In this document: piece after piece, positions 3,760 through 59,459 of the stretch | Layout: each line of letters starts with the position of its first letter | How positions within the stretch are numbered: the stretch's first letter is position 1 | NCBI RefSeq assembly: GCF_000744825.1 | Contig: NZ_JQMR01000001.1 | Location: 2,341,501-2,405,500, forward strand | Origin: Carnobacterium mobile DSM 4848 | Lineage (GTDB): Bacteria; Bacillota; Bacilli; Lactobacillales; Carnobacteriaceae | Direction: 5' to 3' | DNA length: 64,000 nt | The notes under the pieces: model-generated | Databases searched by the model: none | Told to the model about the DNA's origin: nothing | The model's input: the letters and a program-made list of their open reading frames with translations, nothing else | Program-made: the position numbers and the translations under genes

Positions 3760-6675
3760 ATGGAAATGTTAAAAGAAGAATGGAAAAAAATAGTCAGTAA
3801 TAAAATGTTGATGATCTCATCTATCGTTATTTTATTTATCCCAATTTTATATGCAGCTTTCTTTTTAAAATCAAACTGGGATCCTTACGGCAATACAGAT
3901 AAATTATCTGTTGCTGTTGTAAACGAGGATGTGGCGGTCGATTATGAAGGAAAGAAACTAGATGTTGGGAACGAAATGGTTGAAAATCTAAAAACCAATG
4001 ATGCTTTAGATTGGCACTTTGTTTCGCCAAGCGAAGCTAAAAAAGGCTTGAAAGACCGTAAATATTATATGGTGATGACTGTACCAAGGAATTTTTCAGA
4101 AAATGCAGCGACATTAATGGATGATCATCCTAAGGAAATGAATATCACCTATGAAACAAACGGTTCTTTAAACTTTATTGGTGAAGTGATCAGTAAGTCA
4201 GCCGTGAAAGAAGTCAAATCCGAAGTTTCTCAAAATGTTACTAAAGCCTATACGGAAGCTATCTTTGATCAAATCGGCGAAGTCGGAGAAGGATTTACAG
4301 AAGCAGCAGACGGTGCGGAAGAATTAGATGAAGGCACAGACAAATTAGCTGATGGAAATCAAGAAATCACTAAAAACTTAACTAAGTTAGCCGACAGTAC
4401 CTTAACATTCAGCGATGGTGCAGATACGTTAAATGTTGGGTTAAAAGAATACACTAATGGTGTAGCTCAAGTTGGTTCAGGAGCAGCTCAATTAAATGAA
4501 GGTATTGGCCAACTAGCTTCTAATGTGGGACCGTTAAAAGACGGTGTAACACAATTAGATAATGGGGCATCTAGCTTAGCTAGCGGTTTGACGGCTTATA
4601 CAGCAGGCGTCAGCCAATTAGAAACTGGAGCCGGACAATTAACTGCTAATAATGCTAAACTTCAAAATGGTGTGGCAAGTTTAAGTGGCGGAGTAGATCA
4701 AGTCAAATCAGGCAGTGATCAGTTATTGGCTGGGTTGAATCAAATGTCAGATACGCTAGGTGAAAGTTTAACACAAGAAAAGCAAGAGCAATTAACAGCG
4801 TTATTAAATGAAGAAACCGGGTTACCTAAATTAAACGCAGGAATCCAAGAGCTCAACGAGGCTTTAAGCGGAGAAAATGGCGCAATCGATGCCGATTCGA
4901 TAATAGCAAACCTAACTAACGTAGGAACAAACTTAGCAGGTATGAAAGAAAATCTAACTACTGCTGGCACAAATCTAACTGGAATGAAAGATAATTTGAC
5001 AGCTGCTGGTACAAATTTAGCTGGTATTGGAGCAGATGTAAAAGCGCTAGGTGAAAAAACACAAACCAATGCAGCCAGTACGGTTAGTGCTATTCAAAGT
5101 ACAAATGCATTTCAATCTTTAGATGAAACTCAACAAACGGAATTATTGGGTGCTTTGCAAAAAGAACTGCAAGCACAAGGAAAATCAAATGGAGATATAC
5201 TTGGAGACATGGCTGAAAAAACAACAGCAGCAGCTCAAAGCGTAGTAGCAGCGGGAGACCAAACTGCCGCAACCGGAGAGAATGTTACTGCAGTCGGGAC
5301 CCAAGCAACTAATGCAGGAAAGGCAGCGACAGATTTAGCAAAACAAATGAAAGGTTTAGCTGCTACATTACCTAAATTGAAAGATAGTGTTGCTGAATTA
5401 GCAGCAGGATCAAATGTAGCTGTTCCTGGGGCTGTTGAAGCAATCAGTAGTTTACAACAAGGTTTATCAGGAATTCAAGATGCCTTAGACAGAACAGGCG
5501 AAGGTTCCGATAAAGGTGTTATTCAAGGAATGACTGAATTGAACCAAGGACTTGCAACGATTCAAAGTGGATTGAAAGGCGATAATGGTTTAGTATCTGG
5601 AATTACTGACTACACAAATGGTGTTAGCACATTACAAAATGGTGCAGGCCAATTAACAAATAACTCTGGCGCATTGAATTCAGGAGCTGCACAACTAAGC
5701 GGTGGAATCAATCAAATAGCTGGGAAACTACCAACGTTGATTGACGGTGTGAACCAATTAAACAATGGATCGTCTGAGTTAGTAAAAGGAACCAATCAAT
5801 TAACACAAAACTCTGGAACTTTAGTGAATGGTGCAGCTCAATTGGCTAATGGAGCAGATCAAATCAATGACGGATCCAATCAATTAGCTGACGGTTCTCA
5901 AACATTAGGTGAAGGATTGGACACATTAAAAGATGGAACTCATACACTAGCCACTAGTTTACAAGATGGTGCGGATGAAGTTAATGCTATCGATCCGACA
6001 GATGAAACCTATACAATGTTTTCAAACCCAACCAAATTGACACATAAAGAATACAGTCACGTACCTAACTATGGTGCAGCTTTGGCTCCTTATATCATGT
6101 CAATGGCTTTGTATATCGGTGCAGTCGTCTTTAATACAATTTATCCTGTTCGTAAAAAATCATTGGCTGGTCAATCAGGCGCAGCATGGTGGGGAAGTAA
6201 AATGTCAGTTGCATTATTATCAGCTGTCTTGATGGCATTGATCGAAGGCGGAATTTTAATGCTGCTTGGCCTACATGTTCAATCTGTAGGAAAATTCTTC
6301 TTAATGGCTGTAGTAGCTGCTCTAACCTTTATGTCAATCGTTTCGTTCTTCACGATTGCACTAGACAATGTCGGCCGTTTCATTGCGATGTTATTGCTGA
6401 TCGTTCAATTAGGCGGTTCAGGTGGAACATTCCCAATGCCATTGACAAATGGTTTCTTCAATGCCATTCATCCGTTCTTACCGATGTCGTATTCTATTTA
6501 CGGACTAAGAGAAGCGATCTCTGGCGGAATGGGTCAAAACTTATACTTGCAAAGTATCATGGTATTGGTGATTGTATTTATTGTATTTAGCGGATTATTG
6601 CTGCTATTTATGACACTTTCTCAAAAAAAGAATCAGGATACAGAAAACAATAATAAAGAAACAGTAACAGCTTAA
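3760..6675 (+). CDS. YhgE/Pip family membrane protein (ABC-2 type domain)
   Basis: A 971-residue protein of the phage-infection-protein (Pip)/YhgE family, related to the EsaA subunit of Gram-positive type VII secretion. One membrane helix is at about residues 16-36. A long extracellular region (about 40-765) follows, containing dozens of short repeats of the form xLxxGaxqLxxG, predicted helical and coiled-coil. An ABC-2-like bundle of five or six helices occupies about 772-955. The role is uncertain: relatives serve as phage receptors, and some are thought to act in envelope export. The ribosome site AAGGAAGG lies rather far from the ATG. It follows the Rrf2 regulator gene and ends in a strong terminator. 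Alanine and glycine content is high in the repeat region, which explains the reverse-strand open frames there. Confidence 0.85.
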   Translation: MEMLKEEWKKIVSNKMLMISSIVILFIPILYAAFFLKSNWDPYGNTDKLSVAVVNEDVAVDYEGKKLDVGNEMVENLKTNDALDWHFVSPSEAKKGLKDRKYYMVMTVPRNFSENAATLMDDHPKEMNITYETNGSLNFIGEVISKSAVKEVKSEVSQNVTKAYTEAIFDQIGEVGEGFTEAADGAEELDEGTDKLADGNQEITKNLTKLADSTLTFSDGADTLNVGLKEYTNGVAQVGSGAAQLNEGIGQLASNVGPLKDGVTQLDNGASSLASGLTAYTAGVSQLETGAGQLTANNAKLQNGVASLSGGVDQVKSGSDQLLAGLNQMSDTLGESLTQEKQEQLTALLNEETGLPKLNAGIQELNEALSGENGAIDADSIIANLTNVGTNLAGMKENLTTAGTNLTGMKDNLTAAGTNLAGIGADVKALGEKTQTNAASTVSAIQSTNAFQSLDETQQTELLGALQKELQAQGKSNGDILGDMAEKTTAAAQSVVAAGDQTAATGENVTAVGTQATNAGKAATDLAKQMKGLAATLPKLKDSVAELAAGSNVAVPGAVEAISSLQQGLSGIQDALDRTGEGSDKGVIQGMTELNQGLATIQSGLKGDNGLVSGITDYTNGVSTLQNGAGQLTNNSGALNSGAAQLSGGINQIAGKLPTLIDGVNQLNNGSSELVKGTNQLTQNSGTLVNGAAQLANGADQINDGSNQLADGSQTLGEGLDTLKDGTHTLATSLQDGADEVNAIDPTDETYTMFSNPTKLTHKEYSHVPNYGAALAPYIMSMALYIGAVVFNTIYPVRKKSLAGQSGAAWWGSKMSVALLSAVLMALIEGGILMLLGLHVQSVGKFFLMAVVAALTFMSIVSFFTIALDNVGRFIAMLLLIVQLGGSGGTFPMPLTNGFFNAIHPFLPMSYSIYGLREAISGGMGQNLYLQSIMVLVIVFIVFSGLLLLFMTLSQKKNQDTENNNKETVTA

Positions 6676-56997: not shown

Positions 56998-57014
56998 AAG
57001 TAAATTGAATGATC

Positions 57015-57056
57015 AATAGGCCTCTAAATCTATTCATTTAGAGGCCTATTATTTTT
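57015..57056 (+). terminator. Hairpin terminator between murP and murR
   Basis: A perfect 15-bp stem (AATAGGCCTCTAAAT with ATTTAGAGGCCTATT) over a 6-nt loop, followed by the short run ATTTTTAG. It would reduce read-through from murP into murR. Confidence 0.8.
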
Positions 57057-57076
57057 AGCTGAAAAGGAGTTTGTCT

Positions 57077-57973
57077 ATGCAAAGCAATCTATTATTTTTG
57101 ATTCAAGAACAAATGAATGGTTTGCCCGAATCTGAGAAAAAAATCGCTGCGACTATTTTAGCAGACCCAGCGGCAGTTATCCAAATGAATGCCACTAGTT
57201 TGGCCTTAAAGGCTGGTTCCAGTTCTGCAGCAGTTATTCGCTTTTGCCACTCGATCGGTTTAGCTGGATTTACTCAATTGAAATTAAACTTATCGGCTGA
57301 TTCTCATAGCATTCAAGAAAAACTTTATAGTGAGATTCAACCGAATGAAGAATTAGAACAAATCAAAAAGAAATTTTTACTGCAGACACACCATGTATTT
57401 AAAGAAACCAATCAAAGCTTGTCTTCTAAGCGTGTAGCAGAAGCAACAGCATGGATTAACGAAAGTACGGTGATTTATACTTATGGAGTAGGAGCCTCTC
57501 ATTTAGTAGCATTGGACTTGCAGCAAAAGTTCAGCAGAATAGGAAAATCCGTTACTTGCTCACAGGATCAGCATTTATTGGCTACTTCCATGTCTGTCGC
57601 TACTAAAGATGCAGTTTTCTTTGCCGTTTCCAATAGCGGAGAAAAACAAGAAGTGATCGCTTTAATGAGAATAGCGAAGGATTTGGGAATAAGAACTATT
57701 TCACTGACAAAAGAATCGGATAATACATTAAGCCGATTGGCAGATATTTCTTTGGAAACAGCGAATACACATGAAGCGCCTTTAAGAAGCGGAGCAACAG
57801 CTTCTTTATTGGCTCAAATGTATGCTGTTGATTTATTGTTTTATGATTTTGCTACAAAATACTATCAAAGAACAATCGAAAACTTAGAAAAATCAAAAAG
57901 CGCCATCCGAAAATTAACCCAATATTTAGAACAGGATGCGGAGCGCTCTCGTCCAGCTCAGACAGAAAATTAG
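57077..57973 (+). CDS. murR: RpiR family transcriptional regulator (MurR-type)
   Basis: A 298-residue regulator with an N-terminal RpiR helix-turn-helix domain (about 1-78; KIAATILADPAAVIQMNATSLALKAGSSSAAVIRF) and a SIS sugar-phosphate-binding domain (about 120-255; YTYGVGASHLVALDLQQKFSRIG, FAVSNSGEKQEVIALMRIAKD). It probably senses MurNAc-6P and represses the operon through the palindrome at 53408. I chose the ATG at 57077, behind AAAAGGAG; a TTG two codons earlier is within the spacing region. The last 15 codons (EQDAERSRPAQTEN and stop) lie inside the first unit of the downstream stem-loop array, so the natural C-terminus has been replaced or extended by repeat DNA. Confidence 0.85.
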   Translation: MQSNLLFLIQEQMNGLPESEKKIAATILADPAAVIQMNATSLALKAGSSSAAVIRFCHSIGLAGFTQLKLNLSADSHSIQEKLYSEIQPNEELEQIKKKFLLQTHHVFKETNQSLSSKRVAEATAWINESTVIYTYGVGASHLVALDLQQKFSRIGKSVTCSQDQHLLATSMSVATKDAVFFAVSNSGEKQEVIALMRIAKDLGIRTISLTKESDNTLSRLADISLETANTHEAPLRSGATASLLAQMYAVDLLFYDFATKYYQRTIENLEKSKSAIRKLTQYLEQDAERSRPAQTEN

Positions 57974-58570
57974 GGAAATTCCCGCAAAAGGCTGCAAGCC
58001 TTGAGGACAATTTTATCTATTTTCCGAAGAGCTAGAGCGCGCAGCTCAACTAAGAACAGGATGCGGAGTGACCCTGGTAGGCACACAGCAATTTTAGGGA
58101 TTTCCCAGCAAGAGCAACCCGCGCATTGCTGGAAATCATCTAAATTGCCAAGTGACTGGGTCACGCAGCTCAACTAAGAACAGGATGCGGAGTGACCCTG
58201 GTAGGCACACAGCAATTTTAGGGATTTCCCAGCAAGAGCAACCCGCGCATTGCTGGAAATCATCTAAATTGCCAAGTGACTAGGTCACGCAGCTCAACTA
58301 AGAACAGGATGCGGAGTGACCCTGGTAGGCACACAGCAATTTTAGGGATTTCCCAGCAAGAGCAACCCGCGCATTGCTGGAAATCATCTAAATTGCCAAG
58401 TGACTGGGTCACGCAGCTCAACTAGACAGGATGCGGAGAACGCTGAACAGGCGTGACAGAAAAATAGAGAAATACCACAAGAGGCCAAAAAGCCTCGAGG
58501 ATATTTCATCTTTTTTCCGAATGCTTAGCGTTTACAGCTCAACTAAGAACAGGATGCGGAGTGACCCGGG
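57929..58570. repeat. Tandem array of ~124-bp stem-loop units overlapping the 3' end of murR
   Basis: Units start at 57929, 58054, 58178, 58302, 58425 and (partial) 58547. Each begins GAACAGGATGCGGAG (the fifth lacks three bases) and ends CAGCTCAACTAA. The middle is a large inverted repeat. Units 2-4 are nearly identical: GTGACCC pairs with GGGTCAC, GCAATTTTAG...TTTCCCAGCAA with TTGCTGGAAA...TAAATTGC. Units 1 and 5 keep the flanks but have a different stem (GCGCTCT/AGAGCGC; AACGCT/AGCGTT). The GC content is higher than that of the neighbours. No ORF spans it. It is not a CRISPR array or an integron attC series. Confidence 0.85.
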
Positions 58571-58592
58571 CAAATATTCTACTTAAAAAAGT

Positions 58593-58633
58593 AAAAAGAG
58601 GTTGTCTTTGTGAATCAAAGACAACCTCTTTTT
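58593..58633. terminator. Bidirectional terminator
   Basis: AAAAAGAGGTTGTCTTTG pairs perfectly with CAAAGACAACCTCTTTTT over a TGAAT loop. It lies between the stem-loop array and the convergent uppP gene. Confidence 0.88.
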
Positions 58634-58634
58634 C

Positions 58635-59459
58635 TTAACCAAATAATGCAAAATATCCTAATACGAGAACTCCTAAGATAATTCGGTACCAACCGAAAGC
58701 CTTAAAGTCGTTGTTTTTGATGTAACCCATCAAGAACTTGATAGCTAGAACAGAAACAACAAAAGCCACTAACATACCGGTCAGTAATATAGCCGTTTCC
58801 ATGCCGGTGAAATGAAATCCGAATTTCACTAATTTTAAGGCGCTGGCTCCGAACATGACAGGAATAGATAAAAAGAAAGAATATTCAGCTGCAATGTAGC
58901 GAGAAGAGCCTAATAAAATAGCACCTAGAATAGTTGCACCAGAACGAGATGTACCTGGAATCAACGATAACACTTGGAACATCCCAATTAAAAAGGCTGT
59001 TTTATAAGTCAAATCCTGGAACGTCTGTATGTATCCATTACGCCCTTTATTACGGTTCTCAATGACAATAAATAAAATACCATAAATAATCAACGTAACT
59101 GCAACCGTTACATAATTATATAAGTGGTCATTTAACCAATCGTCAAATAATAATCCTAAAACAGCTGCAGGCAAAACACCTACAATAACTTTATACCAAA
59201 TAGACATTGTTTCTTGTTTTTCGGCAGCTGACTTTTTAGGTGAAAAAGGATTTAGTCTATGGAAATAGAGGAGGACTACTGCAAGAATTGCTCCTAATTG
59301 AATGACAACAAAAAACATTTCTTTAAACGCTGGTGAAGCATCCAATTGAATAAATTCCTCTACTAAAATCATATGGCCCGTACTGCTGATTGGAAGCCAT
59401 TCTGTGATACCTTCAACGATTCCTAAAAAAACCGCTTTTAATAATTCGATAAAAACCAT
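58635..59459 (-). CDS. uppP: Undecaprenyl-diphosphatase (BacA type)
   Basis: A 274-residue membrane phosphatase that recycles undecaprenyl pyrophosphate for peptidoglycan synthesis and gives bacitracin tolerance. Both signatures are present: [17 protein letters not shown] near residues 16-32 and [17 protein letters not shown] near 166-182, with about eight helices. The ATG follows GGAAGGAGCAC. It is a single gene bounded by the terminator and the YeiH-family gene. Its presence beside a MurNAc recycling cluster may be coincidental. Confidence 0.92.

Follow-up and report, generated by a model that had tools for sequence, protein, structure and literature searches.

Small hairpin repeats are a known kind of bacterial sequence, represented by the BOX, RUP, bcr1, EFAR and REP elements, and have so far mostly been described one species at a time. 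BOX elements end in ATACTC/GAGTAT and are composed of modules A-B-C, and EFAR repeats are variable assemblies of sequence types, 42-650 bases in length. BOX in Streptococcus pneumoniae and the RepSU1/BOX-type repeats of S. suis are small folded repeats often located at gene 3′ ends, as is the family described here. The accessible text of Croucher et al. 2011 (PMC3049150) places BOX often at the extreme 3′ ends of genes (36/58 overlapping coding sequences) and notes that S. suis carries the BOX-type RepSU1 repeats. In the available part of PMC3733652, REP elements are sequences of 20-40 bases with a GTAG or CGTC tag, and GTAG REPs supply stop codons to neighbouring genes.

Also comparable are bcr1 and EFAR/Efa-1. 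The accessible portions of PMC2267715 and PMC3733652 name bcr1 as a repeat, and by its description this element of the Bacillus cereus group is likewise a small mobile-like hairpin repeat in Bacilli. EFAR/Efa-1 is, like the present family, dispersed, intergenic, palindromic and multi-copy, in a related genus. Efa-1, listed by Cozzuto et al. 2008 (PMC2267715), is in the accessible part of that source 163 bases long with two adjacent stem-loops; compared by description, the present elements differ in being single hairpins, tandem and Bacilli-wide. The layout of two stem-loops in about 163-170 bases was not encountered here, where two tandem units occupy about 240 bases.

We analysed a window of 64,000 nucleotides from Carnobacterium mobile DSM 4848, in which a tandem array lies between murR and uppP. 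This array belongs to a family of dispersed hairpins, about 112-126 bases long and with no consistent reading frame, that extends across the Bacilli. The family behaves as small mobile DNA of the MITE/REP-like kind, which is our best reading and to which we assign a probability of roughly 0.55.

The array between murR and uppP

Five full units stand head to tail on the forward strand at 57929-58567, followed by a 3′-truncated sixth. The features are given below with scores from R1, a covariance model built on alignment A1 (20 selected units collected by their ends, from which near-duplicates, mosaics and one 138-base overlap were excluded).

57071..57973, + strand: murR/RpiR-family regulator gene (family matches below specific curated cut-offs), 3′ end formed by unit 1
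57929..58053, + strand: unit 1, stem type A; R1 match 57930-58053, 124.9 bits; first 45 bases are the last 14 murR-like codons and the stop
58054..58177, + strand: unit 2, type B; R1 112 bits
58178..58301, + strand: unit 3, type B; R1 106.6 bits
58302..58425, + strand: unit 4, type B, end CAGCTCAACTAG; R1 109.3 bits
58426..58546, + strand: unit 5, third stem type, start ACAGGATGCGGAG without the GA linker; R1 100.8 bits in the own-genome search (C1:2399925-2400046)
58547..58567, + strand: unit 6, type B start, 3′-truncated after about 21 bases
58635..59459, − strand: uppP, undecaprenyl-diphosphate phosphatase, convergent neighbour

The preliminary description had reported a tandem array of about 124 bp, and this was confirmed both by Tandem Repeats Finder (124-base period at 58040-58438, 98% matches) and by the border 15-mer, which is exact at 57929, 58054, 58178, 58302 and 58547. 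At up to three mismatches this 15-mer has 11 matches in the window, six of them within the array, against a maximum of three in 100 shuffles. The claim that all units share the same 15-bp start and 12-bp end holds exactly for most units only, since the start carries two mismatches at 58424 and the end, exact at four sites, carries one at 58414. The 5′ constant part of the array is AGGATGCGGAG and the 3′ constant part GCAGCTCAACTA, and the unit termini read AGGATGC...GCTCAACTA. Where two stem types had been proposed, units 1 and 5 against units 2-4, three were found: units 2-4 are nearly identical, and the stems of units 1 and 5 differ from each other around a similar core. The GA linker is missing at the unit 4/5 junction.

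Folding of each unit, a check proposed earlier, gave one long hairpin in every case; compared with shuffles, the fold is strong in units 2-5 (z −4.3 to −4.6) and unremarkable in unit 1 (z −1.5). As had also been noted, the murR-like frame ends at 57973, inside unit 1, which encodes its last 14 residues (EQDAERSRPAQTEN) and stop codon. A coding repeat was considered, since an ATG in AGGATGCGG starts a frame that runs through to the final TAA of the window's type B units, and was rejected because the unit lengths, 118-124, include values not divisible by three. A terminator-like hairpin separates the array from uppP at 58590-58636, and three further short tandem repeats are present in the window at 1132-1353, 4927-5027 and 5868-5917 (periods 52, 42 and 21).

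Dispersal and fold of the family

The 13-mer ACAGGATGCGGAG, at up to one mismatch, has 25 forward and two reverse matches in the C. mobile genome and none in a reversed control; no unit surrounds the two reverse matches. The forward matches, at 1.76, 2.09, 2.10, 2.40 (the murR array), 2.43, 2.46, 2.50, 2.51, 2.52 and 2.54 Mb, mark mostly short arrays and some 5′ fragments. At least five stem types occur in this genome, mixed inside arrays, and three units are mosaics by eye, with halves from different types. Variable hairpin cargo inside constant borders, as earlier proposed for the array, is also seen elsewhere in the genome, where the same borders recur with other stems; the borders are constant within a lineage only. 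R1 gave 39 matches in this genome at E up to 0.1, of which five weaker ones scored 49-78 bits with a broader model, R2 (two weakest excluded, one just 43 bases). A second subfamily in the same genome (L353, L354, L355) has GCTAGACAT ends as in Enterococcus; two weaker copies of it run antisense, with a start codon at a distance of 35 and 55 bases, and two of its copies have a common TATAAT-like flank near a gene start. At one locus (L014:295-700) a unit 5′ fragment is followed by an array of a repeat of about 50 bases with GACAAACTAAG/GAAGTTTGTC palindromes.

The suggestion that the array belongs to a dispersed repeat family was borne out by related arrays across the Carnobacteriaceae, the order and other Bacilli. 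R1 finds the family in 29/59 related genomes and 13/28 genera, the own genome counted. R2, built from 107 mixed copies, gave matches in 48 genomes of an evenly drawn set of 299 from the Bacilli, members of seven families outside the order among them, some with tandem copies. All 22 genomes of one Enterococcus genus were positive with R2, with up to at least 150 matches per genome. A search of named genomes with the core pattern returned 106 stretches, and among the 80 listed Enterococcus species predominate (E. moraviensis, E. caccae, E. ureasiticus and E. plantarum, for example), other listed carriers being Streptococcus suis, S. acidominimus, S. cuniculi and Isobaculum melis. No copy was found in plasmids with two array queries or in phages with one query, and viral contigs lacked the core pattern. 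One covariation-supported fold links the arrays of Carnobacteriaceae, Enterococcus, Streptococcus and other Bacilli and provides a single model for annotating very many copies.

Rfam gave 15 matches for window positions 57000-59000 at E up to 5, all far below gathering thresholds; none touches units 1-5, and unit 6 is touched by one of them, SCARNA15. The hairpin at 58590-58636 accounts for most of the sub-threshold microRNA matches. At 14 further loci four Rfam matches reached the gathering threshold, all away from the elements. No description of this hairpin family was found in the literature, in which subscription journals were incompletely covered. Homology with BOX was considered and is unsupported. 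The ATACTC...GAGTAT ends, seen also in the BOX copies compared, differ from the family termini; R1 had no match at E up to 10 in 24 BOX-pattern loci; and 14 BOX copies (of 22 caught) scored pairwise near the shuffled level against the family, any excess in reverse orientation being faint. Several BOX copies show the letters TAA across the 5′ border, and a BOX search of viral contigs brought up one unrelated contig.

The hairpin, which has conserved internal loops, is supported by covariation. Among 104 distinct rows, 27 of 30 pairs showed changes on both sides and 96.1% of cells were paired, compared with 71.3% when shuffled and 34-53% with partners slid, in an alignment that was model-fitted, which favours pairing; in the unfitted alignment A1, 19/30 pairs had changed on both sides. 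At the extreme ends of the units in A1 pairing is limited to GA/TC and GC/GC, with bulges, and the stem sequence is not constant.

The strand on which folding is maintained was examined by counting G-U over A-C on the element strand. With columns that are always G-U left out and identical rows counted once, the ratio was 63:17 in alignment A3 (102 rows, mostly Carnobacteriaceae). Enterococcus, counted in the same way, showed the same bias, both in 114 antisense rows (92:38) and in sense rows (12:2), and the Streptococcus counts are too small to be informative (sense 2:2, antisense 3:0). In A1 a hand count gave 11:2 (p 0.02). In stems 1-2 of 64 Enterococcus antisense units, a set chosen by primary-sequence core and thus less subject to search-model bias, the ratio was 41:13 (p 0.0002). 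Antisense copies hence keep the element-strand bias where an mRNA hairpin predicts the opposite, which favours single-stranded DNA or a separate transcript. The wobble bias by itself cannot tell DNA from RNA; taken with the orientation of the copies, the sequences favour selection on single-stranded DNA rather than on mRNA.

Placement at coding borders and turnover of units

In the Carnobacteriaceae the units adhere to stop codons. Among 34 arrays from seven genomes (33 and the window array), all sense to the upstream gene, 26 have an in-frame co-oriented stop between −6 and +3 bases relative to model position 1; in five others, murR included, the gene extends 14-41 bases into the unit, and in three the stop lies 12-28 bases upstream. 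When orthologous loci were merged by eye to 20 distinct loci, 15 were at a stop against a null of 16% (p about 9e-9), the null being the share of stop codons among sense TA(A/G) sites (222/1380) in 240 element-free co-directional spacers. Across 14 loci of distant Bacilli, three are clear stop-codon cases and the gene enters the unit in two more.

Placement in Enterococcus is mainly at starts: in 44 of 81 rows the start codon of an opposite-strand gene is no more than 24 bases away, a count that tolerated starts called up to 75 bases too long, and ten rows are at a co-oriented stop. The other 27 are outside both border types, some of them being later blocks within an array. In the start-region copies a Shine-Dalgarno complement typically adjoins the unit. 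Of 30 Streptococcus matches, 17 place their 5′ end no more than 12 bases from a co-oriented stop, eight lie within 17 bases of an opposite start and five, three of them second units, fall outside this rule; several of these loci are orthologous, some frames are short, and the counts are raw. Stop placement in Streptococcus was seen at dnaK, rpsN and rpsH, and the dnaK stop and dnaJ start present both border types within one spacer. At three Streptococcus loci (L332, L293, L292) inward-facing element pairs between dnaK and dnaJ flank a gene of 213 residues, and dnaJ begins directly at the element with no visible Shine-Dalgarno sequence.

On the 3′ side a variable spacer and often a 3′-truncated last unit are found, and the 5′ end is rarely clear of a coding border. 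TA or TAA stands at both borders of many Carnobacteriaceae arrays, with flanks too diverged to prove a target-site duplication, and is not seen in outlying Bacilli, where many 3′ ends resemble GCTGGACAAA instead of ..CTAA; a model with TAA at both ends is therefore not universal. Border adherence exceeds the prediction from a three-base target, so that a function at the border is possible, and why 5′ ends adhere to start and stop signals is now a testable question.

A rule based on replication strand was also considered. Copies are on the leading strand in 116/117 cases in eight Carnobacteriaceae genomes and in 35/39 cases in the own genome, yet the rule was rejected: in the own genome one copy on the lagging strand shares its direction with a gene of that strand, and most Enterococcus copies run antisense to genes; orientation therefore follows the gene and not replication. 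One side of dnaA holds 114 of the 117 matches in the eight genomes (G002, G003, G004, G011, G013, G015, G016 and G017) and 38 of 39 in the own genome (G000), with the terminus taken opposite dnaA. Gene orientation accounts for the strand of the copies, not for the replichore arm (left).

Orthologous sites differ in presence, type and number of units. The murR-uppP spacer is array-free in the relatives G002, G003 and G004, each with its own murR end, and the matched contig of a fourth, G001, lacks the murR side. The own-genome insertion thus seems to have replaced the old C-terminus, in agreement with the earlier proposal that the array entered at the coding end; the refuting case, in which no copies exist elsewhere and array-free relatives share an identical murR C-terminus, was seen in neither part. 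The rpoB-rpoC slot is filled in all four genus members fetched, with differing types and degenerate in G004, and tdk-prfA is filled in C. mobile alone among the four genus members. The mnmE-mnmG site is empty in G003 and G004, and glyA-upp in C. mobile and G002. Of the 22 Enterococcus genomes, 15 have full units at rpsB-tsf, which fall into 13 types, two have relics there (G624, G627) and five have nothing (G609, G613, G619, G622, G623), with one to three units per genome by the segmentation used and more in one genome by eye.

Two sister genomes, compared over 400 kb with 95.6% identity in long matches, carry 20 and 17 arrays; three of the 20 are unpaired, one of them an opposite-strand call on the same palindrome. 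At the 17 common slots, 16 of which adjoin a reversed Shine-Dalgarno motif, the 300-base 5′ flank has a mean identity of 96% and is nowhere below 85%, compared with a mean of 82% for the first 105 array bases, below 85% at 11/17. One slot has an extra intact unit in one genome, before a relic common to both. Units turn over faster than their flanks. Slots that stay in place while their content changes quickly can serve as a strain-typing marker and provide a natural experiment on core-gene operon spacers.

Constant borders around variable content are also a property of integron attC and CRISPR arrays, but here there are no cassette genes, no spacers and no polar gain of units. Polar gain was hinted at by the rpsB-tsf series e, d e and f d e and was ruled out by the full count, in which 17 type-sharing pairs among the 15 arrays had a common prefix in ten cases, a common suffix in five and another arrangement in two.

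Proposed mobile DNA and its alternatives

If the family is mobile DNA, a putative enzyme would recognise the element as folded single-stranded DNA, and units would be inserted or exchanged beside short TA(A/G)-like sites, the surviving insertions being mainly those that spare coding sequence and ribosome signals. At murR, insertion just inside the old gene end would have given the protein a new tail. The mobilising enzyme need not be in this genome now, and some of the unit swapping, as well as the mosaics, could stem from ectopic gene conversion. REP/BIME sequences with RAYT resemble the family in hairpins, arrays, stop-codon supply and likely recognition of single-stranded DNA; they differ in that REPs are shorter and tagged and in that, of the 29 genomes with the element among the 59 related ones, 19 lack a Y1 transposase (PF01797). 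It is present in the other ten and in 9/30 genomes without a match. The search, which covered the Y1 family, tied no transposase to the elements. In the own genome no Y1 transposase was found, which rules it out as the mobiliser there; past mobilisation by such an enzyme is possible. Which enzyme moves these elements where a Y1 transposase is absent can now be tested. A bolder version has hairpin cassettes, recognised as folded single-stranded DNA, occupying fixed coding-border slots throughout the Bacilli and being swapped between them by a putative recombinase. We consider it doubtful; if true, it would mean a fast-evolving structural layer beside the start and stop signals of core genes (rpoB, dnaK-dnaJ, ribosomal proteins).

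Placement at stops would also be expected of a host-serving mRNA element, in which the hairpin after the stop sets termination, ribosome recycling or mRNA decay. The stem starts about 12-13 bases past the stop, at the edge of a terminating ribosome, and E. coli REP elements within 15 bases of a stop codon reportedly stall ribosomes. This explanation would accommodate the 26/34 arrays and 15/20 loci at stops against the null of 16%, and the recurrence of the placement in distant Bacilli (3/14 loci) and at dnaK, rpsN and rpsH in Streptococcus. The 44/81 Enterococcus rows antisense by a start argue against it, since their mRNA carries the complement and the wobble bias is still that of the element strand, as do orthologous sites that are often empty and vary in unit type and number; we regard it as unlikely. 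An independent small structured RNA of several types, made from the element strand, would agree with the strong covariation and the conserved internal loops. It appears quite improbable given that the elements match no Rfam family, that their presence is patchy and that units start directly at stop codons or Shine-Dalgarno sequences, which would leave no common non-coding upstream stretch for a promoter. The near identity of units 2-4 indicates that duplication added copies to the array, but a purely local tandem duplication at the murR end is refuted by the recurrence of these borders and types at many further loci and in other species, and its probability is negligible.

The remaining alternative concerns the name of the family: it may be the EFAR/Efa-1 repeat of E. 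faecalis in a wider range, already named there. The accessible text of PMC3733652 presents EFAR as a MITE of enterococci, that of PMC2267715 presents Efa-1 as an E. faecalis family of 163 bases, and several Enterococcus arrays contain further repeat modules. The adjacent stem-loop pair of Efa-1, as given in the available part of PMC2267715, stands against the single hairpin of about 120 bases found here. We hold this identity to be plausible, at somewhat less than even odds, and the EFAR repeats of E. faecalis may be the local form of the family. In the Enterococcus genomes G614 and G620 another dispersed repeat (TGGTAACAACGTTCCGCTT..) lies downstream of several arrays, and together with the units it could make composite repeats like EFAR. 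A second repeat (CTTCAATCCTTGGAGCTTTAGCTC..), about 70 bases long, interrupts hairpins in the arrays of these two genomes at five places, each time near a comparable position.
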